The position numbers and the translations under genes were made by a program. A stretch of DNA of 45,211 nucleotides from positions 1 through 45,211 of the IMG/VR virus record IMGVR_UViG_3300047317_000073, one strand, 5' to 3'. Shown here one piece after another: positions 5,789 to 42,435 of this stretch. The notes beneath the pieces were generated by a model. It saw only the letters and a program-made list of their open reading frames with translations, did not search any database and was not told the origin of the DNA. This DNA comes from a virus. Every line of letters begins with the position of its first letter. The first letter of the stretch is position 1.

Positions 5789-6658
5789 ATGACAACCACA
5801 GAATTTGGGATCGGCACGGTTGACAGGGAGTTTGCCCTGGTGGCCGCTGGCCTGCAGATGCCAGTAACGCCATCGGCTCCAGTGGCAAGCCCGGTCAACC
5901 TGGTTCGGTCCTCCCGCATTCCGCCAGATGAGACAAATGGCCGTTGGGTCAATGGGTTTGCCTATCTGCCTGAGGGCGTTGGCAAACTGACGATGTTCGA
6001 TGATTGCTCAAACACAGAGCAGACCATCGCTGACATCACACCATTTGTGTCAGACTGGCAGCCATACGTTCTGAGTGCGCAGTTCAGGTGCTCAACGTTT
6101 GGCTTTGACGCGGCTGATTACATGGGCCGCGCAACAAGGCTGCTCGATGCCGCTACACCCAAGATGCTTGAGGAGGAGTTCTGGAATGGGACTCTTTCGC
6201 AGGCAGCAAGCCTGGCAAACACGTGGCTGGAGAAGGCTGGTAGCACAGCGTTCACGGCCACGTCGATGCGGCAGGCATTCGCCATTTGCGAGCAAGCACT
6301 TGGCGATGCGGCATATGGTGGGCGTGGATCAATTCACATGCCACCCTACCTGGTGCCGTACGCGGCATTTGAGCAGCTGATCAGGCGTGAGGGCAACTTG
6401 CTGCTGACAGACAAAGACACCATCGTGGTGCCTGGGTCTGGCTACGGCAAGATGGCCGACGCACCGGCAGGCTTGCACGTGTATGCCACTGGTATCACTG
6501 ATGTTCGCCTTGGCGACATCATCGTGACGCCGGACGGTGGCAACATGGCGCAGAGCATCGACAAGGCAAGCAACACAGTGGTTGTCAAGGCTGAGCGTTA
6601 CGCATGCGCCAGTTGGGATGAATTGCTGTGGGTCAAGGTAACCGTCACTCTGCCGTGA
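5789..6658 (+). CDS. Capsid-associated structural protein (actinophage family)
   Basis: A 289-residue protein directly after the major capsid gene. The composition and blocks WVNGFAYLPEG, ADYMGRATRLLDAATPK, LEEEFWNGTLSQAASLAN, RGSIHMPPYLVPY, LIRREGNLLLT and DTIVVPGSGYG resemble a family found next to head-tail connector genes in many actinophages. The LEEEFWNG and RGSIH blocks suggest a capsid-like or head-vertex protein. No enzymatic motif is seen. Shine-Dalgarno TGGAGGTG precedes the ATG. Structural role is likely; the precise role is unknown. Confidence 0.6.
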   Translation: MTTTEFGIGTVDREFALVAAGLQMPVTPSAPVASPVNLVRSSRIPPDETNGRWVNGFAYLPEGVGKLTMFDDCSNTEQTIADITPFVSDWQPYVLSAQFRCSTFGFDAADYMGRATRLLDAATPKMLEEEFWNGTLSQAASLANTWLEKAGSTAFTATSMRQAFAICEQALGDAAYGGRGSIHMPPYLVPYAAFEQLIRREGNLLLTDKDTIVVPGSGYGKMADAPAGLHVYATGITDVRLGDIIVTPDGGNMAQSIDKASNTVVVKAERYACASWDELLWVKVTVTLP

Positions 6659-6667
6659 GGAGGACAG

Positions 6668-7543
6668 ATGGCAAACCTGTGCGGCGCCTCATTGCAGTGT
6701 GCCGCTATCCGCGTGACTGAATTGGATGCCGCTGGCGTTCCACAGCCAGGCGCAGCCATGTACGTCACCGACAATCTGGTGAAGATCGACTTCAACCCTG
6801 AGATGGAAACAGGGCAGGAGATCAGCAACAAGAATGCGGCCGGCAACCTGTGTGTTGTCTACCGTTCACCAGACATCATGAAGAGGCTGACAATGACCGT
6901 TGAGGTCTGCGTCCCTGACCCTGAGTTGGAAGTCCTGCTCAGTGGTGGTGATCTCTTCATGGAGGGCACCGGTCCAAGCGCTGAGGTCATGGGTTGGTCC
7001 TACCCACCGCTCATGGTTGACCCCACGCCGAACGGGTGCTCCATCGAAGCATGGACACGGTACGTCATCGATGGCTATCAGGACCCTGATCAGCCATTCA
7101 TCAGATGGGTGTTCCCTCGCAACAAGCTGCGCAAGGGCAACAGGACCATCGACATCAACGCCATGGCCAACGTCTATGAGGGATTTGCAATTGAGAATCC
7201 TTCATGGGGCGATGGTCCACTGAATGACTGGGAGTGGGATTCATCCCGAGTCGCTCAGGCTGCATTTGCGGACAGCGTCCCGACCGTGCAGTGTGGCGGC
7301 ATGACAGTGCCCACCTCTCCTGGTGCGGCAACTGGTGCTACGGCTGGTGTTCCTGGTGCTTGGACCCCAAGCGGCGCAACACCTCCAGCCACCGTCGCTG
7401 CTCTGATCGCTGGCACGCCCAACACGGTCGTGGCATCGCCAGGCACCGCATGGACGACTGGCCAGTACGTTCAGACGGCAACGGCTGGTGTCCCTGGCCA
7501 GGCGCACTGGAATGGCACCATCTGGGTCACTGGCGTTGCGTGA
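6668..7543 (+). CDS. Major tail (tube) protein-like, with C-terminal Gly/Ala/Thr module
   Basis: A 291-residue protein beginning MANLCGASLQ. The first approximately 210 residues (VTELDAAGVPQPG, VTDNLVKIDFNPEMETGQEIS, NKNAAGNLCVV, VEVCVPDPELEVLLSG) match the pattern of actinophage tail-tube proteins. After about residue 215 comes a low-complexity PTSPGAATGATAGVPG linker and a short module ending in TAWTTGQYV...AHWNGTIWVTG, a surface module also found on other phage virion proteins. It is placed before the head-tail adaptor, earlier than usual for a tail-tube gene, so a head-associated role is an alternative. Confidence 0.6.
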   Translation: MANLCGASLQCAAIRVTELDAAGVPQPGAAMYVTDNLVKIDFNPEMETGQEISNKNAAGNLCVVYRSPDIMKRLTMTVEVCVPDPELEVLLSGGDLFMEGTGPSAEVMGWSYPPLMVDPTPNGCSIEAWTRYVIDGYQDPDQPFIRWVFPRNKLRKGNRTIDINAMANVYEGFAIENPSWGDGPLNDWEWDSSRVAQAAFADSVPTVQCGGMTVPTSPGAATGATAGVPGAWTPSGATPPATVAALIAGTPNTVVASPGTAWTTGQYVQTATAGVPGQAHWNGTIWVTGVA

Positions 7544-8351: not shown

Positions 8352-8711
8352 ATGACCATTCAGCCGCTTGGGGCGCCTGCGGTCGTCAAGATTGACGACC
8401 CTGCGCACAACCCTTTCTGGCCTAAGAACATGAGCGGTGGCCAGGCGCCAGACGCACCGGCGGCCAACCACATCGACATCACAAGCATCACGTTCGGCGC
8501 GGCACCCGCATATGCCGCAACAATCAACGTGGTGACAACGCCAGTCAACACGGCGTGGACGGTGGACTGGGGCGATGGCACTGCGGTGGACAATGTGACC
8601 GCAGGGACAAACCTGAAGGCCCACACCTACGCTGACGTGTCGAGCGGCAAGAAGTACGTTGTCCAGGCAGCCAGTGGTGGCGACACGGATCAGCAGACTG
8701 TCGAGTACTGA
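8352..8711 (+). CDS. Small PKD-like (Ig-fold) virion protein
   Basis: A 119-residue protein. Its second half has the hallmark of a PKD domain: TAWTVDWGDGTAVDN followed by AHTYADVSSGKKYVVQAAS. PKD domains in phages are usually surface decoration or adhesion modules on head or tail. It lies between the adaptor and connector genes, with GGAGTG upstream of the ATG. Virion location is inferred. Confidence 0.6.
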   Translation: MTIQPLGAPAVVKIDDPAHNPFWPKNMSGGQAPDAPAANHIDITSITFGAAPAYAATINVVTTPVNTAWTVDWGDGTAVDNVTAGTNLKAHTYADVSSGKKYVVQAASGGDTDQQTVEY

Positions 8712-8713
8712 GC

Positions 8714-9241
8714 ATGGACGTCCAGGTGCTGGCTCAGGCGTTGCTAGACAACATGGTTGAGCAGTTGACTGCTCAAGACATCGCGTTGCCCAGCGTCCAG
8801 TACCTTGCGCCTGGAGCCGAAGTTGCATTTGATTGCGAGCAGTTGACCGTTAGCCTGACTCGCATCATTAGCAACTTTGGCGGAGCAGACACACCGTTCC
8901 CTCATCCATCCGCTTTGCTCATGAGCAGTGCTGAGTTCTTTGTCACCCTAGTCCGTTGCGTACCAACATTTGACGACAACGGTAATCCTCCACCCTCAAG
9001 TGCTATGTCCGATGCTGCCGGAGTGATCATGCAGGATGCGAGAGCACTCCGGCGCAGCCTGGAGAAGATTGACCAGGCACACAAGATTGTGCCCAGAAAT
9101 GTTCCAGTGACAATTGGGGAATTGAGGACTATCGGGCCAAGTGGTGGGTTCGCAGCCTGCAGCATCATGTACACTGTGATGCTTGTTGACAATCAATGGG
9201 CGCCAGATCAGCGCCCAGTGGCAGCGACCAGGAGGCTTTGA
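8714..9241 (+). CDS. Head-tail connector/tail completion protein
   Basis: A 175-residue protein with the pattern VAFDCEQLTVSLTRI, VTLVRCVPTF and a helical SDAAGVIMQDARALRRSLEKI segment, which resembles the small connector protein that follows the adaptor in actinophage genomes. It may be a stopper or terminator-type subunit. The stop codon overlaps the next ATG by one base. Confidence 0.55.
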   Translation: MDVQVLAQALLDNMVEQLTAQDIALPSVQYLAPGAEVAFDCEQLTVSLTRIISNFGGADTPFPHPSALLMSSAEFFVTLVRCVPTFDDNGNPPPSSAMSDAAGVIMQDARALRRSLEKIDQAHKIVPRNVPVTIGELRTIGPSGGFAACSIMYTVMLVDNQWAPDQRPVAATRRL

Positions 9242-10170
9242 TGGGATACGAGAGTGATGCTGGCAATGTCGGCAAGAATGCCGACAATGAAGTTGCCATC
9301 CTGAAGGATCAGGTTGGGACCCTGACAAGCGCCAACCAGACGTTGGCTGCCAAGAATGCTGACCTCCAGAAGCAACTGGATGCAGCAACGCAACCACCTG
9401 TGCCGCCAAAGCCGAAGGACATCATCTGGTCCTCAAGCCTCGCAAATGGCACAGGCACTTTGGCAGCGACAGCGGCATTGTTTGGCTGCTCAGCAGTCCG
9501 TGCCTACAACTCTGGCCCGGTGTCTGGATGGTCTTCGGCTGCTGGCGCTGCCGCTCCATCTGGCGTGAGTCCGTTTGACTCGGCCAAGTGGGACCAGAAT
9601 GCGGTGGCGGCCAACGATTCTGCCACGATGATCCAGATCAGGGACTGGCTGCTGAATGGTGGCGGCTGGCGTGCATGGCACCATGAGCCTGAGGGTGACT
9701 TCCCTGTCGCGACCTACAAGGCAGCATATGCCAACATCGTCAAATTGGGCGTGCGTCTTGACCGGCTTTGCCCGACGCTCATGGGTTTCAGCCTGACGCC
9801 TGCTGGCATTACCAAGTGGGGTGGAGTGGAGCAGTATTACATTCCAGAGGCTGGCTTGCTCGGCTTTGACGCATATGCTGTCAAGGGCACCAACTTCAAC
9901 CAGTTTGACCTGGCGTCCAGTTATGCCATCAGCAAGAACAAGGACTGGATCTTGGCCGAGTTTGGCTACCAGGTCATTTCATCGACCAACCCATACCCCA
10001 ACGATGACCAACTGCTGGCATTCATGCAGCGGGTGGTCCCATACCTGCGCAATCTGCCCAAGCCGCCCATCATGGCGTCACTGATGAATCACGGTGCCCA
10101 GACGATGGACGGCAAGACCAATCCGAAGTCCACGGCGTACTACAAGGATGTGTGTGCCGGCAAGGCCTGA
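9241..10170 (+). CDS. Coiled-coil plus glycoside-hydrolase-like (clan A) protein, copy 1
   Basis: A 309-residue protein. I choose the ATG at 9241, 5 nt after a strong GGAGG, rather than the in-frame ATG at 9196. Residues 1-45 form a coiled coil (EVAILKDQVGTLTSANQTLAA and on), then a proline linker (PPVPPKPK), then a TIM-barrel-like domain. Likely catalytic acids are E149 or E151 in WRAWHHEPEGD (acid/base) and E240 in LAEFGY (nucleophile), the layout of GH26/GH5-type enzymes. This suggests a virion-associated polysaccharide hydrolase. The next gene is a diverged paralog. Enzyme activity and substrate are not shown by the sequence. Confidence 0.6.
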   Translation: MGYESDAGNVGKNADNEVAILKDQVGTLTSANQTLAAKNADLQKQLDAATQPPVPPKPKDIIWSSSLANGTGTLAATAALFGCSAVRAYNSGPVSGWSSAAGAAAPSGVSPFDSAKWDQNAVAANDSATMIQIRDWLLNGGGWRAWHHEPEGDFPVATYKAAYANIVKLGVRLDRLCPTLMGFSLTPAGITKWGGVEQYYIPEAGLLGFDAYAVKGTNFNQFDLASSYAISKNKDWILAEFGYQVISSTNPYPNDDQLLAFMQRVVPYLRNLPKPPIMASLMNHGAQTMDGKTNPKSTAYYKDVCAGKA

Positions 10171-10197
10171 TCTGTTGATGTGATGGTGGCAATGGGG

Positions 10198-10216
10198 CAA
10201 ATGCTATTTGCATTTG
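10198..10216 (+). other. AT-rich perfect hairpin between the two paralogs
   Basis: CAAATGC pairs with GCATTTG around a TATTT loop in the 85-nt gap between the two glycosidase-like genes. It is followed by GGGGGCCTTTTGT, which gives a short uridine run. A weak terminator or a relic of the gene duplication are both possible. Confidence 0.35.
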
Positions 10217-10255
10217 GGGGCCTTTTGTCCAGGGCATCAGCAACCAGGAGGAACA

Positions 10256-11203
10256 ATGAGTTATGCCAGTGATGCAAATGCGGTCGGGGTGGCTGCAGAT
10301 ACAGAAGTTGCGGGGCTGAAGGACCAGAACGCGACACTCACGGCAGCCAATCAAACGTTGGCCGCCAAGAATGTCGATCTTCAGAAGCAACTTGATGAGG
10401 CCACCAAGCCGCCGACACCAAAGGCGACAACGGTGTATGGCTCATGCCCGATCAGTGGCGGATGGAAGAGCGTTGCCACTCGCTGGGATGGCAAGGCAGG
10501 CAAGGCTTGTGTGCGAGCCTTCCAGTCTGGCGCGACACCGAGGCTCACAGACATCCCGCAAGAGGCTGATCGTCGCATTGCCTACTCGTACAAGCCGACA
10601 ATTGGCTCATTGGCCAATGGCTCAGCAATTGGCACCCTCCAGAACTTCTTGGCGGGCCTGACAGTACCGACTGACGTGTGCATTTGGCACGAGATTGACA
10701 GCAAGGTGAACAAGGGCCAGGTTGACCCTGCTGCTTGGAAGGCTGACATGGCTGCGGCTGTCAAGGTCTTTGATCAGCAGAAGTGGGGCCGTCTTGGCTA
10801 CATTGTCACACTGTGGACACGAGGGTCATGGCAGACGTACCAAGTGCCTGGCGTGAAGTGGCTCGGTGTTGACTACGATGGACTTCCGCCTGGTGGCACT
10901 GCGGCTGCTGGTTACCCGACAAAGTCCATGGACGCCTACCTGGCAGACAGTGACGCGATCAAGGCTGCTGGACTTGCTTTGATTGTTGGCGAGTTTGGCG
11001 CCCAGTTGGCATCGTGGGACACGACGCCACAGCGTGGCTCGGCTCGTGGGGCTTGGATGACCAAGTACGGCAATCAGTTTGCTCAGGCAGGCTATGAGTA
11101 CGTCTGTGCTTACGAGTCCCACAACTACGATGCCGCTGATGGCACAGGGTACTGCCTGGATGACCCAGGTTCGGCAAATGCTTGGCACGCTCTGATCCCT
11201 TGA
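10256..11203 (+). CDS. Coiled-coil plus glycoside-hydrolase-like (clan A) protein, copy 2
   Basis: A 315-residue paralog of the preceding gene: the N-terminal coiled coil is nearly the same (TAANQTLAAKNVDLQKQLDE), while the barrel domain is strongly diverged. Candidate catalytic acids are E146 in CIWHEIDSK and E246 in IVGEFGAQ. AGGAGG lies 5 nt before the ATG at 10256; an in-frame ATG at 10208 lacks a binding site. The conserved coiled coil with different barrels suggests a shared virion attachment handle carrying two different carbohydrate-binding or cleaving heads. Confidence 0.6.
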   Translation: MSYASDANAVGVAADTEVAGLKDQNATLTAANQTLAAKNVDLQKQLDEATKPPTPKATTVYGSCPISGGWKSVATRWDGKAGKACVRAFQSGATPRLTDIPQEADRRIAYSYKPTIGSLANGSAIGTLQNFLAGLTVPTDVCIWHEIDSKVNKGQVDPAAWKADMAAAVKVFDQQKWGRLGYIVTLWTRGSWQTYQVPGVKWLGVDYDGLPPGGTAAAGYPTKSMDAYLADSDAIKAAGLALIVGEFGAQLASWDTTPQRGSARGAWMTKYGNQFAQAGYEYVCAYESHNYDAADGTGYCLDDPGSANAWHALIP

Positions 11204-11212
11204 GAGGCAACA

Positions 11213-11668
11213 GTGACCAGTGACTTCCGCACCAACAATGGTCGTGGTGTCGTCGTTGTCATATCTGGTCAGGCCTTGGATGAGATCATCAGGAGCCCAA
11301 CTGGCTACCTGTGCACGAACATGATGTACCGCATGGAGATTCTCCAGACGGCAGCCAAGCGTCAGATCAGGCTTGGACATATCCATGGTGGTGGTGGATA
11401 TGGCAATTTGCGTGACAGCATCGTCAAGCGTCTCCAGACACAGAAGAGCAGTGGCTTGCCCCTCGGCATTGTTGGATCATCGCACCCCATTGCGTTGATT
11501 CACCATGAGGGCACCAAGGCGCACATCATCTTGCCTGTCAAGGCAAGAGCGCTGCGATTCCCAGGGCCAACAGCCTCAGGCTTTGTCTTTGCCAAGGTTG
11601 TCCACCATCCTGGGACGCGCCCCAACAGGTACCTGACAGACAACATCCCTCTAGCAATGGCAGGATAA
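11213..11668 (+). CDS. Neck/tail-completion protein (HK97 gp10-like)
   Basis: A 151-residue protein with a GTG start and GAGAGG upstream. The helical N-terminus with AAKRQIRLG, a LRDSIVKRL segment and the C-terminal HHEGTKAHIILPVKARALRF, VHHPGTRPNRYL match the neck or tail-completion family typified by HK97 gp10 (minor capsid/tail-completion). It is in the usual place, right before the tail assembly chaperones. Confidence 0.7.
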   Translation: MTSDFRTNNGRGVVVVISGQALDEIIRSPTGYLCTNMMYRMEILQTAAKRQIRLGHIHGGGGYGNLRDSIVKRLQTQKSSGLPLGIVGSSHPIALIHHEGTKAHIILPVKARALRFPGPTASGFVFAKVVHHPGTRPNRYLTDNIPLAMAG

Positions 11669-28081: not shown

Positions 28082-28105
28082 ATCAGAAACCCATTGGAGG
28101 GCATG

Positions 28106-29923
28106 ATGAATCGCGACAACAAAGTTGTCGTGGATGTAGACCTTGGTGAGAACAAAGTCATCACCATGTCTGCTTATCAAGAGGCTGATCCAGACAAATT
28201 CAAGGCGGCTGGTTTCTCTTGGCAGAAGACCACCAGAATGTGGCGAGCGCCACTGACGATGGACTCATGTCGAGCGTTGCGTCGTGAGTTTGGCAATCGG
28301 CTTGTTCTGTCGCCAGAGATCACTGCGTGGGCGACAGCACAGAAGCAGGCAGATGCTGAGTTGCGTGAACTCGCCAAGGCTTCAGCCGCGACACTGACGG
28401 TCACGCCGACCCTTGCTCCCGCAATGGCCAAGTTGATGGACAACCGCACCTATGAGCAAGTGGGCGCTCAATTCATCAACAAAGCGAATGGCAATGTGCT
28501 CATCGCTGATGAGCCAGGGCTGGGCAAGACTCTTGAGGCCATCAGTGGTCTCATGGAGGCTGGTCGGTGGGGTGGACCGATCTTGATTGCGGCTCCAATG
28601 ACAAGCCTGCGGCCAACATGGCTGCGTGAACTGACAAGGTTCACACCCGATGCTCACATCACGATTGGTGTCCCACCAACTCGTGACAGCGCAGCGGCCA
28701 GGCGAGAGTTGTTGGAGCGGTGGCTTTCTGCGTACCTTGCGACGCCAGACGAGCCACACATCCTGGTGATCAACGCTGAGATGGTCAGGACGGCTGCGGA
28801 GAAGTTCCCAGTCATCGCTGGCATCACCTGGAACGCAATCATCCTTGACGAAAGCCACAAGTATCTCAGTGGCATTCGGAGTGCGCAGAATCTCACCTTG
28901 ACTGGTGAGGCGATGTTGGCTCTCAAGGGTGACTTCAAGATCGCACTGAGTGGAACGCCCATGCGGGGCAAGCCTCGGAATTTGTGGGGCACGCTCCACT
29001 GGCTCAGGCCAAAGCAGTACACGTCATTCTGGCGTTGGGCTGGCCAGTACCTTGTCGTTGAGGAAGGCAAGTACGGCAAGATCGTGGGTGGTTTGAAGCC
29101 AGGCGTTGAGGCTGACTTGTACCACAGCCTGGACGGAATCATGTTGCGGCGCACCAAGTCTGAGGTGGTCAAGGAATTGCCACCGAAGCAGCACATTGAT
29201 GTGATGTGCGACATGACAAAGGAACAAGCACGGCAGTACAAGCAGATGGAAGAGAAGTCATACACCGAATTGGGCGATGAGCGAATCACCGCTGCGGGTG
29301 TGCTGGCAATCATGACTCGCCTGAAGCAGATGGCATCGTGTGCATGGGAGCCTGGGCCTGCTGGTAAGCCCAAGCCGCTCATGAACGCCAAGATGTCTGG
29401 CAAGGCGGCCATGATTGAGCAGATGCTCATCGAGCGTGGCATTGCTGGTGATGCCAGAGAGGGTGACGGCAAGATCGTCATTGCCTCTCAGTTCACAGAG
29501 ATTGTGGACTCACTTGAGAAGTTCCTGGCCGAGATCAAGGTGCCTACCATGAAGATTACGGGTGCCGTGAAGGAGAGCAGGCGGCTGGAGGTCACCCAAG
29601 ACTTCCAGTCAGTCGGTGGACCACGAGTGCTGCTTATGAACACCATGGCTGGTGGCGTGAGCATCACTCTGGATGAGCACTGCGATGAATTGATCATCAT
29701 TGACGAGACGTGGGTGCCGGACGACCAGGAACAACTGGAAGATCGGATTCACCGCGTCTCCCGCATTCACCAGGTGATGATCTACAGGTTGCTCACGACC
29801 GACACTGTTGATGAAGAGATTGATGGCGTCAACATTGCGAAGGATCAAGTCCAGAAGCAATTGCTTGATGGACGTCGTGGAGTGGAATTGGCCAAGCGGC
29901 TACTGGGAGGACAAGCAGCGTGA
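28106..29923 (+). CDS. SNF2-family DEAD/H-box ATPase (helicase-like)
   Basis: A 605-residue protein. An N-terminal approximately 100-residue region (FKAAGFSWQKTTRMWRAP, HARP-like) precedes the ATPase. Motifs: Q-like TYEQVGAQFIN, Walker A DEPGLGKT (135-142), motif Ia AAPMTSLRPTW, DESH near 249, SGTPMRGKPRNLW, then C-terminal helicase motifs (IVIASQFTEIVDSLEKFL, LLMNTMAGGVSITL, VPDDQEQLEDRIHRVSR). Start ATG 28106 gives 5-nt spacing from GGAGG; an ATG at 28103 is also possible. Likely a DNA translocase acting in phage replication or recombination. Confidence 0.88.
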   Translation: MNRDNKVVVDVDLGENKVITMSAYQEADPDKFKAAGFSWQKTTRMWRAPLTMDSCRALRREFGNRLVLSPEITAWATAQKQADAELRELAKASAATLTVTPTLAPAMAKLMDNRTYEQVGAQFINKANGNVLIADEPGLGKTLEAISGLMEAGRWGGPILIAAPMTSLRPTWLRELTRFTPDAHITIGVPPTRDSAAARRELLERWLSAYLATPDEPHILVINAEMVRTAAEKFPVIAGITWNAIILDESHKYLSGIRSAQNLTLTGEAMLALKGDFKIALSGTPMRGKPRNLWGTLHWLRPKQYTSFWRWAGQYLVVEEGKYGKIVGGLKPGVEADLYHSLDGIMLRRTKSEVVKELPPKQHIDVMCDMTKEQARQYKQMEEKSYTELGDERITAAGVLAIMTRLKQMASCAWEPGPAGKPKPLMNAKMSGKAAMIEQMLIERGIAGDAREGDGKIVIASQFTEIVDSLEKFLAEIKVPTMKITGAVKESRRLEVTQDFQSVGGPRVLLMNTMAGGVSITLDEHCDELIIIDETWVPDDQEQLEDRIHRVSRIHQVMIYRLLTTDTVDEEIDGVNIAKDQVQKQLLDGRRGVELAKRLLGGQAA

Positions 29924-38912: not shown

Positions 38913-39173
38913 ATGCCGATGCGGGGTGGTGACGATCCGTACGCACTGTACAACGTCAAGCGTGGCGAGGCAATTGCCTTGTTGCGTACCATGAGGATTC
39001 TCTGGGCAGAGCACAGGCACGATGAGTTCCATGTGCTCTGGCAGAGCCTTGATGATGAGGCCAAGGAGATTGTCTTCACGGTTTGCTTCTCACTACTGCT
39101 CCAGGCGACTGAAATGCAGATACACGTCATTGAGATGATGACAGGTGAGGAGCATGGGGATGTCCAGGACTGA
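38913..39173 (+). CDS. Small helical protein, unknown function
   Basis: An 86-residue protein (MPMRGGDDPYALYNVKRGEA...) with two long helices (IALLRTMRILWAEHRHDEF, DEAKEIVFTVCFSLLLQATE). Overlaps the DnaE start by 14 nt, so translation is coupled to the polymerase. A small polymerase accessory is possible. Confidence 0.5.
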   Translation: MPMRGGDDPYALYNVKRGEAIALLRTMRILWAEHRHDEFHVLWQSLDDEAKEIVFTVCFSLLLQATEMQIHVIEMMTGEEHGDVQD

Positions 39174-42100
39174 CTTTGTGTCACTCCACACTCACACGAC
39201 ATACTCATATGGCGACGGACACGGGCAGCCCATGAACTTTGCGACACGGGCAGCGGAGTTGGGCCACCCCGCATTGGCGCTCACCGAACATGGCAATGTG
39301 AGTAGTCATGTGAAGCACGAGCAAGCCTGTAGCGCCAACAACATCCAGCCGATCTATGGGTGTGAGTTGTACACACGCGATGAGCCGAACATGCACAAAT
39401 TCCACCTCATTGCGTTGGCGATGAACCAGCAAGGCTACAAGGATTTGCTGTCACTTGTGTCAGCATCGTGGCGCAATTTCTACTACTTCCCCACGACAAC
39501 ATCCGGCATGATGAGCGAGTTTGGAGGTGATCTCATTGTCCTCAGTGGATGTCTTGGTAGTGCCATCGCGTGCCGAGCGTTGGGCGGCAAGGGCATTGAG
39601 AGTGCCGATGCTGGGGGATTATCTGCTGCCCTTGGTGTGGCCAAAGCGATGGAGCGCAGATTTGGTGACCGCTATTATCTTGAGGTCCAAGCATTCCCAG
39701 AATTGCCCAGGACCAAGCGGCTCAACCAACTTCTTGTCAAGGTGCATGAGGAGACTGGCATTCCGATGGTCGTCACGTTGGATGCTCACTATCCAACGCC
39801 AGATGACAAAGGGATGCACAGCCTTGTCCATGCCATCAGTCGTGGTGGCGCGGCAGGCAAGAAAACTGTTGACCAGCAAGAGGAATCCTGGAACTACCAG
39901 GTACCAATGACTTTGTTTGACAGACAAAGTGTTGGGCGCAGATTGGCGGCTGCGGGTGTCGATGACCGACGGCTCGTGAGCCAATGCTTGGACAACACGC
40001 TGGAGATTGCGCAGCGATGTGAAGTGACGTTGCCCAAGATGCATCAAATGGTGTACCCATTGCCACCTGGTGTGGTGAAGCCTGAGGACCTGTTGTGGGA
40101 ATGGTTGCGTGATGGGTGGCGCTACCGTGACATGAACCACAATTTGGCGCCAGGCATGACGGCTGCTGACTACACGGCCAGGTTGAATCGTGAGGTTGGC
40201 CTGGCCATCAAGCAAGGCTTTGTGGATTACTTCTTGGTGATGAGCGACGTTGTGCGATGGGCCAAGGGTCAGCAGATAGTTGTTGGCCCGGCACGTGGTT
40301 CGGCTGCTGCATCGTTGATGTGCTACTTGCTTCGCATCACTGAGATTGACCCATTGTTCTACAGTCAAATGTACTTTGAGAGGTTCATGGACCCGAACAG
40401 GACAGACATCCCTGACATCGACCTGGACTTTGATGATGAGCGGCGTGATGAGATCAGGCTGTATCTCTCGCGTAAGTACGGCAGTGATCATGTTGGTAAC
40501 ATTGGGACTTTCACCAAGTACAAGGGTCGCATCGCGCTTGATGATGTGGCCAGGGTGACCAAGGTTCCATTGGCTGAAGTGACGCGGCTCAAGGAGTTTG
40601 TCATTGAGCGGTCATCTGGTGACTCTCGTGTGAGCAACACGCTTGAGGACACCATCGAACAATTCCCAATGGCCAGGGCAATCTATGAGCGCAATCCATC
40701 GTTGTCACAGGCGTTGGACCTTGAAGGCATGTTGAAGAGCATGGGTGTTCACGCTGCGGGGTTGGTCATCAGCGACCAGCCGTTGACTGATGTTGCTGCG
40801 TTGTACACCCGTGAGATCAAGAGCAAGATACCAGGTGGTAAGCCTCGCAAATTGTCTGTGCTGTCTGTGGACAAATATGATGCTGCTTACCTGGGCATGA
40901 TGAAGGTGGACATCCTTGGTCTCACCACGTTGGGGCTCATCAGGATTTGTCTTGAAATGACAGGCATGACGCTTGATGAGTTGTATGGCCTGCCCATGGA
41001 TGATGAGCGAATCATCGATGCGTTTCGTCGGTGCGACGTCAAGGGCATTTTCCAGTTTGAGGGCCGGACCACCCGCAGTGTCGTTGCTGAATTGAAGCCA
41101 GACAACTTCCAGGAATTGGTCGATATCAATGCGTTGAGTCGGCCAGGCCCATACCACTCGGGCACAACGTTGGACTACATCAACTCCAAGTGGGGCAAAT
41201 GGAACAGATCTGATGTGCGCAACGCATGGACGTTCAACGAGGACATCGAACGCATATGCGGCTACACAAAGTTCCAGATCATCTACCAGGAGCAGATGCT
41301 GGCCATTTGTCGTGAGATTGGCAACTTTGGTTGGCAGCATGCTGGTGAGATGCGCAAGATGATCTCACTCAAATATGGCGAGGCAGCGATGAACAGCAAG
41401 CGTGCGTTGTTCATCGAGGGTGCGTTGGCCAATGGCCTTGATGAGCATTTGGCTGACTTGATCTTCAAGCGCATCGTGACTGCTGGTCAGTACGCATTCA
41501 ACTTGGCGCACAGCGTCTCATACTCGATGCTTGGGTATTGGGCGATGTACTTCAAGGTGTACCATCCAGCAGTGTTCTATGCGGCATCGTTGCGCAAGAC
41601 GGACAAGGCCAAGTGGGCAAACCTCATGCGGGACATGCTTGATCCCAAATTTGCGGGTTTGCGGGTGGGTGGTGATCGACTGACCGTGGGCGCAATTGAC
41701 ATCAACAAGTCGAGCATCACTTGGACGGTGGATCAGGAGCGTGGCATCATCCTTCCTGGCTTTGCTCAAATTCCAGGCATCGGTGTCAAGATGGGTGCCG
41801 AGATTGCTGTTGAGCGCAAGATGGCTAGGGACATGGGCCAGACATGGGACTGGACGGCCATTGGCACAATCAAGGGCATCGGCCCCAAGAAGTTGGAGGT
41901 GTTGCGCGAGTGGGCGACAAAGGATGACCCATTTGGCGTGACATCGTTGCACATCAGCCTTGAGGAAATCAGGATGATGTTGCGTGCTGGCCAATTGATC
42001 GACGGTGGCGGGGCCATGCTTCCCGCACCCAGCCACAAGAGTGAAGATTTGCCGTTTGACATGGGTGTGCAATTCTATGACGAGCATGGAAACGCCATGT

Positions 42101-42435
42101 GGGGCAATGAGGAACGGCTGCCTGTCACGTGGATTGGGCGAGTGAAAGAGCGCAACTTGCGAGACATGTTTGAGGAGTACAGGACACGTGAAGGCAGCGA
42201 CCTTGACCCCGCAAGCATTAGGCACCCAGAGAAGAAACTCAGCATGATCATGTATGCCTATGACGACACCGATGAGATCAACTTGCGTGTGTCACGGTAC
42301 AAGTTTGATCAATTCAAAGACACATTGATGAAGATCAGACTGGACCATGACGTCGTTGTTGTCGACGGCTACAAGACAAGATCGTTTGGCCGCAAGGTTG
42401 AGATCAACCGCATGTGGCTCATTGATCCAGATTGA
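39160..42435 (+). CDS. dnaE: DNA polymerase III alpha subunit (DnaE) with intact PHP domain
   Basis: A 1091-residue polymerase. I use the ATG at 39160, with GGTGAGGAG 7 nt upstream. The PHP domain is complete (HTH at 10-12, ALTEHG, GCELYT, DAHY), so a metal-dependent exonuclease site may be active, as in actinobacterial DnaE1. The palm has GPARGSAAASL and the catalytic PDIDLDF (418-424), then KVDILGLTTLGL with the third carboxylate, and an HhH region (GTIKGIGPKKLEVL). C-terminal OB-like and tail segments follow (VTWIGRVKERNLRD). It is the replicative polymerase of the phage. Confidence 0.92.
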   Translation: MSRTDFVSLHTHTTYSYGDGHGQPMNFATRAAELGHPALALTEHGNVSSHVKHEQACSANNIQPIYGCELYTRDEPNMHKFHLIALAMNQQGYKDLLSLVSASWRNFYYFPTTTSGMMSEFGGDLIVLSGCLGSAIACRALGGKGIESADAGGLSAALGVAKAMERRFGDRYYLEVQAFPELPRTKRLNQLLVKVHEETGIPMVVTLDAHYPTPDDKGMHSLVHAISRGGAAGKKTVDQQEESWNYQVPMTLFDRQSVGRRLAAAGVDDRRLVSQCLDNTLEIAQRCEVTLPKMHQMVYPLPPGVVKPEDLLWEWLRDGWRYRDMNHNLAPGMTAADYTARLNREVGLAIKQGFVDYFLVMSDVVRWAKGQQIVVGPARGSAAASLMCYLLRITEIDPLFYSQMYFERFMDPNRTDIPDIDLDFDDERRDEIRLYLSRKYGSDHVGNIGTFTKYKGRIALDDVARVTKVPLAEVTRLKEFVIERSSGDSRVSNTLEDTIEQFPMARAIYERNPSLSQALDLEGMLKSMGVHAAGLVISDQPLTDVAALYTREIKSKIPGGKPRKLSVLSVDKYDAAYLGMMKVDILGLTTLGLIRICLEMTGMTLDELYGLPMDDERIIDAFRRCDVKGIFQFEGRTTRSVVAELKPDNFQELVDINALSRPGPYHSGTTLDYINSKWGKWNRSDVRNAWTFNEDIERICGYTKFQIIYQEQMLAICREIGNFGWQHAGEMRKMISLKYGEAAMNSKRALFIEGALANGLDEHLADLIFKRIVTAGQYAFNLAHSVSYSMLGYWAMYFKVYHPAVFYAASLRKTDKAKWANLMRDMLDPKFAGLRVGGDRLTVGAIDINKSSITWTVDQERGIILPGFAQIPGIGVKMGAEIAVERKMARDMGQTWDWTAIGTIKGIGPKKLEVLREWATKDDPFGVTSLHISLEEIRMMLRAGQLIDGGGAMLPAPSHKSEDLPFDMGVQFYDEHGNAMWGNEERLPVTWIGRVKERNLRDMFEEYRTREGSDLDPASIRHPEKKLSMIMYAYDDTDEINLRVSRYKFDQFKDTLMKIRLDHDVVVVDGYKTRSFGRKVEINRMWLIDPD

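Follow-up and report, generated by a model that had tools for sequence, protein, structure and literature searches.

Two genes on the plus strand, GH1 and GH2, stand in tandem among the neck genes of a phage, and each encodes a short N-terminal coiled coil, here called the handle, followed by a barrel of predicted GH26-like type (Table 1). The window analysed is the entire IMG/VR record IMGVR_UViG_3300047317_000073 (45,211 bases). Contig G001 overlaps both window ends without mismatch (100%) and adds 9,455 bases (listed as window 1-45211 plus L051-L053); the window is therefore an incomplete, permuted part of a genome of about 54.7 kb. The source is an uncultivated relative of actinobacteriophages, and its hexamer-type capsid protein, pentamer-type protein, tail protein and adaptor have kin in that group. 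The gene order is capsid, second capsid protein, major tail protein, adaptor, PKD-like protein, G24, GH1, GH2, G25, a small chaperone-like gene, a second small gene, and tape measure. Homologs of G24 are found in VanDeWege (gp27), Teamocil (gp33), Pumpernickel (gp90) and, weakly, Atuin (gp81), and those of G25 in Atuin (gp82), Pumpernickel (gp91), Marley1013 (gp26) and Teamocil (gp34). Elsewhere in the window, a collagen-repeat tail fibre (22-1515) and then an M15-type endolysin (1637-2323) lie directly upstream of a portal-like gene, an SNF2-family helicase is encoded at 28094-29923, and a long gene for DNA polymerase III alpha with a PHP domain (39145-42435, 1096 aa) is present in this phage of about 55 kb.

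Table 1. Features of the GH1/GH2 locus, in window positions.
Feature	Position	Strand	Basis
G24, left flank, neck-region protein (phrog_810)	8714..9241	+	PHROG match
AGGAGG ribosome site of GH1, within the end of G24	9230..9235	+	sequence
GH1, coiled-coil handle and GH26-like (beta/alpha)8 barrel, 309 aa	9241..10170	+	ORF, profiles, hhalign, AF2
GH1 handle, N-terminal coiled coil, residues 1-54	9241..9402	+	72-73% identical to GH2 handle
GH1 linker and barrel domain	9403..10167	+	profile, AF2, Foldseek, hhalign
GH1 Glu149, predicted acid/base (WHHEPEG, end of strand 4)	9685..9687	+	invariant, aligned with HE of GH26 relatives; AF2
GH1 Glu240, predicted nucleophile (AEFG, strand 7)	9958..9960	+	alignments, AF2
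AGGAGG ribosome site of GH2	10246..10251	+	sequence
GH2, GH1-type handle and a different GH26-like barrel, 315 aa	10256..11203	+	ORF, profiles, hhalign, AF2
GH2 handle, N-terminal coiled coil, residues 1-54	10256..10417	+	72-73% identical to GH1 handle
GH2 barrel domain	10418..11200	+	profiles, AF2, Foldseek, hhalign
GH2 Glu146, predicted acid/base (WHE, end of strand 4)	10691..10693	+	alignments, AF2
GH2 Glu246, predicted nucleophile (GEFG, strand 7)	10991..10993	+	alignments, AF2
G25, right flank, tail completion/neck-like protein	11213..11668	+	phrog_5, E 3e-4

The tandem pair that a first-pass annotation had placed at 9241-11203 is present as two ORFs with starts at 9241 and 10256. Both ribosome sites are perfect and strong, comparable to that of the major tail protein. 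The 85-base gap between the genes (10171-10255) contains a perfect CAAATGC-TATTT-GCATTTG hairpin; a scan of this gap for a terminator found none, and the gap folds only modestly better than its shuffles (z -1.9).

The setting of the pair was compared with 79 related IMG/VR loci collected by their major tail protein, the overlapping contig G001 being the eightieth. Both G24 and G25 can be read in 75 of these loci, which are not mutually independent, and the two frames abut or overlap in every one (75/75; gap -111 to +4 bases, stop to stop). At the closest relative, L059 (tail protein 79% identical), the site is empty, and a single ATGA holds both the stop of G24 and the start of G25; the G24-like and G25-like genes of Atuin, Pumpernickel and Teamocil are adjacent too. 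No match to the handle or the barrels was found in the 79 loci; for 50 of these the search with the barrels covered the complete records and was likewise negative. Since the junction is closed in all 75 relatives, GH1 and GH2 are an accessory insertion between two neck genes, exactly at the gene junction. The lack of both genes in G001 was discounted as evidence because that contig ends at window 8344, before either gene. The first-pass annotation had put the pair between connector and neck genes and thought the place odd for depolymerases; the location is real, between the phrog_810 protein and the tail-completion/neck-like G25 and upstream of the chaperone and tape-measure genes, and it is an insertion into an otherwise closed junction. 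The small PKD-like gene between the adaptor and G24 (8352-8711), which has a WTVDWGDGT...HTY motif and lacks a Pfam match, has sequence counterparts in four relatives (L059, L060, L061 and L064) and possibly encodes a decoration protein. Its membership in the GH1/GH2 insertion was ruled out, as close relatives carry it without the enzymes.

That the pair is an assembly chimera or stray bacterial DNA, and no feature of the phage, is highly improbable. The insertion is covered by no second assembly, given where G001 ends, but the GH1 start overlaps the G24 stop codon (TGATG), the base composition of both genes agrees with that of their neighbours, and both flanks of the insertion are collinear with L059. 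Moreover, no hydrophobic signal sequence is seen in the translation of GH1 or GH2, unlike several bacterial relatives, which carry signal peptides.

The family of the barrels was recognized by profile comparison. Single-sequence searches with GH1 or GH2 gave no useful match in Pfam, NCBIfam, PHROGs, PDB or named phages, the weak NCBIfam and PHROG matches being coiled-coil noise, and the curated GH26 model PF02156 matched neither protein at E up to 10, so the label "GH26-like" is used rather than "GH26". GH1 matches one phage protein (L001/L002) with 34% identity around WHHEPEGD. At E 0.01, a two-sequence profile of GH1 and this protein had matches in 11 of 396 actinobacterial genomes, the weakest being doubtful. 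The sound ones are GH26-like and show motifs such as FHHEPEND...GEYG, and several of them bear Tat signals; two bacterial proteins recovered in this way score above the PF02156 cut-off. The family alignment, with eight members, matches the lichenase CtLic26A (endoglucanase H, PDB 2bv9) at 2.7e-37, with the HE and E motifs falling on the acid and nucleophile residues of that enzyme. A bacteria-only profile of secreted actinobacterial GH26 enzymes, whose members were chosen with guidance from GH1 and not from GH2, ranks GH1 first (2.3e-6) and GH2 second (1.4e-3) among the 378 window ORFs. The same two ORFs head the ranking (GH2 6.3e-4, GH1 4.6e-3) with a profile made from five further phage proteins, to which neither GH1 nor GH2 contributed. 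Among 962 ORFs from relatives the best score with each of the two profiles was 3.5 bits; the bacteria-only profile gives 22.9 for GH1 and 13.7 for GH2. Alignment to the bacterial family with hhalign gave a probability of 95 (E 3.4e-8) for GH1 and 74 (E 2.9e-5) for GH2. Two other searches were set aside: a scan of bacterial genomes for DNA encoding WHHEPE.D gave chance matches only, and actinobacterial matches to GH2 alone were also due to chance, the ORFs opened being sulfotransferase-like and other unrelated proteins.

AF2 models of both proteins show eight alternating strands and helices, i.e. a (beta/alpha)8 barrel (pTM 0.65 for GH1 and 0.62 for GH2). Built from seven sequences, the models are of moderate confidence (pLDDT 61-63) and are thus used for fold class only. 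Foldseek searches with both models returned mainly TIM barrels, including GH158, GH5, GH128 and GH26 structures as well as non-glycosidase barrels, with TM-scores mostly 0.4-0.6. Together with the profiles, the models place GH1 and GH2 as predicted GH26-like members of clan GH-A. The first-pass annotation had likewise proposed TIM-barrel glycosidases, and both the predicted fold and the two profiles that single out exactly these ORFs agree with it; neither a fold other than a barrel nor acids outside the pocket was seen, the Glu residues being placed directly behind strand 4 and at strand 7. Of the acid and nucleophile motifs it had ascribed to both proteins, HxE and EFG stand (WHHEPEG...AEFG in GH1, WHEIDS...GEFG in GH2), whereas the EP.G form of the acid motif is absent from GH2. 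The domains are as different as it had stated: BLAST cannot align the proteins beyond the handle, and the global identity of the barrels is 24% (z = 2.8 over shuffles).

The two-Glu mechanism of GH26 enzymes and the roles of their residues have been described (PMC6556568). In the alignments and models, GH1 and GH2 both retain the two catalytic Glu and the His that precedes the acid. With regard to the other subsite -1 residues (Arg, His, Tyr and Trp of BoMan26B), D-x-Y is present in GH1, while the strand-8 Trp is absent, as is the Arg three positions before the His, which the actinobacterial relatives lack as well. Since several of these residues are missing, activity or specificity may differ. 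The loss of subsite residues and the strong divergence could also be explained if the barrels had lost their sugar-cutting function and served the virion as adhesins that bind glycans, as the neck decorations of 936 phages are mainly sugar-binding (PMC6669499). The retention of both catalytic Glu and the preceding His in two barrels that are only about 24% identical argues against adhesins, which are considered quite unlikely, and GH1 and GH2 are probably enzymatically active and may be retaining beta-glycan hydrolases.

In contrast to the barrels, the handles of GH1 and GH2 are identical at 40 of 55 residues (BLAST E = 2e-21); within the motif quoted in the first-pass annotation for a near-identical coiled coil, 15 of 16 residues match. 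The heptads have Leu in all four d positions and V/N, N, N and L in the a positions, a pattern typical of parallel dimers, which suggests that the handle is a short parallel coiled coil that oligomerises the proteins. Among the 39 identical residues after the start Met, the codon differs at 21, as compared with 23.2 +- 2.9 expected with independent codons. Synonymous sites in the handle are thus as different as chance would make them, so its likeness is kept by selection and is not that of a recent copy; the handle is old and maintained by selection. A recent tandem duplication is ruled out by the same saturation, and the barrels either diverged separately or were swapped while the handle stayed. 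No homolog of the handle and no virion-docking domain was found in Pfam, NCBIfam, PHROGs, PDB, named phages or the 79 related loci.

Proteins with the same domain occur in other phages and in bacteria. Those of phages L044 (7416-8582), L002 (7788-8576) and L048-L050 (around 6001-6850) have no Pfam or PHROG matches. They carry a WHHEPEGD or MHEPGPKD motif and share with GH2 a C-terminal LDD.PS..AW motif; unlike GH1 and GH2, they have no handle. The genes of L002/L001 and L044 directly follow genes for a GH25-type lysin and membrane proteins, whereas those of L048-L050 are not part of the structural cluster, L048 and L050 having theirs upstream of terminase-like genes. The L044 protein has about 100 additional N-terminal residues, Ig/PKD-like in look, before its barrel. 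Secreted actinobacterial GH26 proteins and CtLic26A (PF02156) share with GH1/GH2 the barrel and the HE acid motif after strand 4; the E.G nucleophile motif at strand 7 is common to the actinobacterial proteins and the pair, and CtLic26A has EFA there. GH1 and GH2 differ from both in having no signal peptide, an added handle, no direct PF02156 match and the loss of several subsite residues. One actinobacterial genome (G228; L028, L039, L041-L043) encodes five divergent GH26-like proteins, most with apparent Tat-type signals; those scanned gave no Pfam glycosidase match above cut-off.

Because the handle is missing from those GH26-like proteins of other phages whose genes are close to lysis genes, a soluble role at lysis remains the main rival to a place on the virion. 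GH1 and GH2 would then be made late and freed at lysis to loosen the matrix surrounding the burst cell so that progeny can spread, with the coiled coil serving only to dimerise them. The gene positions of the phage relatives, which have no virion anchor, and the want of a docking homolog for the handle both favour such a role. It is nevertheless held to be rather unlikely, as GH1 and GH2 lie in the neck cluster, away from the M15-type endolysin, and the common handle kept by selection occurs only in them and not in the relatives from other phages.

The simplest reading of the strong ribosome sites, late production, absence of a signal peptide, shared root with different heads and neck-gene setting is a virion-borne pair of glycosidases. 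We give about even chances to GH1 and GH2 being glycan-cutting decorations of the virion that function in the manner of lactococcal neck passage proteins, oligomerised and docked by the handle. Both proteins would be produced late together with head and tail proteins and would join through their common coiled coil, either as homodimers or as a GH1-GH2 pair. Through the handle they would probably attach to the virion, with the neck as the likeliest site, and the diverged barrels could attack two kinds of linkage, or two portions of the host surface or matrix polysaccharide, during the approach of the phage; the pair probably helps the phage through sugary coats. A more specific form, in which matched coiled coils form a GH1-GH2 hetero-oligomer at one neck site with two complementary GH26-like activities and the handle is a plug for exchangeable heads, is speculative and judged doubtful. 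Most searches for sugar-cutting enzymes of phages look to tail fibres and spikes, and GH1/GH2 point to the neck-gene cluster as a further site for plugged-in glycosidases. The GH26-like barrel is a domain overlooked in phages by standard family models, and a small coiled coil may act as an exchangeable socket.

The first-pass suggestion of decoration enzymes that help the phage through exopolysaccharide is plausible and has precedents. The neck passage structure (NPS) of lactococcal 936 phages, present in only some of them, has a constant region of the first ~180 aa and variable heads that are sugar-binding or beta-helix (PMC6669499). Like the NPS, GH1/GH2 are accessory genes of the neck region with a constant N-terminal root and a variable C-terminal sugar-active head (handle 72-73% and barrels 24% identical), a pattern known here from two genes of one genome. 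They differ in their GH26-like heads, their 54-aa root and the presence of two same-root genes in one phage, and no sequence relation to the NPS was found. Gordonia phage Sour, which has a related neck, also carries a putative glycan-active protein among its adaptor and tail genes: gp22 (L008:6836-8938), annotated as hypothetical, matches pectate-lyase PF12708 and EPS-depolymerase/tailspike PHROGs. It is of beta-helix type, is a single gene between the major tail protein and adaptor genes, and lacks the GH1/GH2 handle. In a Staphylococcus phage, a pre-neck appendage protein is reported to have EPS-depolymerase activity (PMC4658415).
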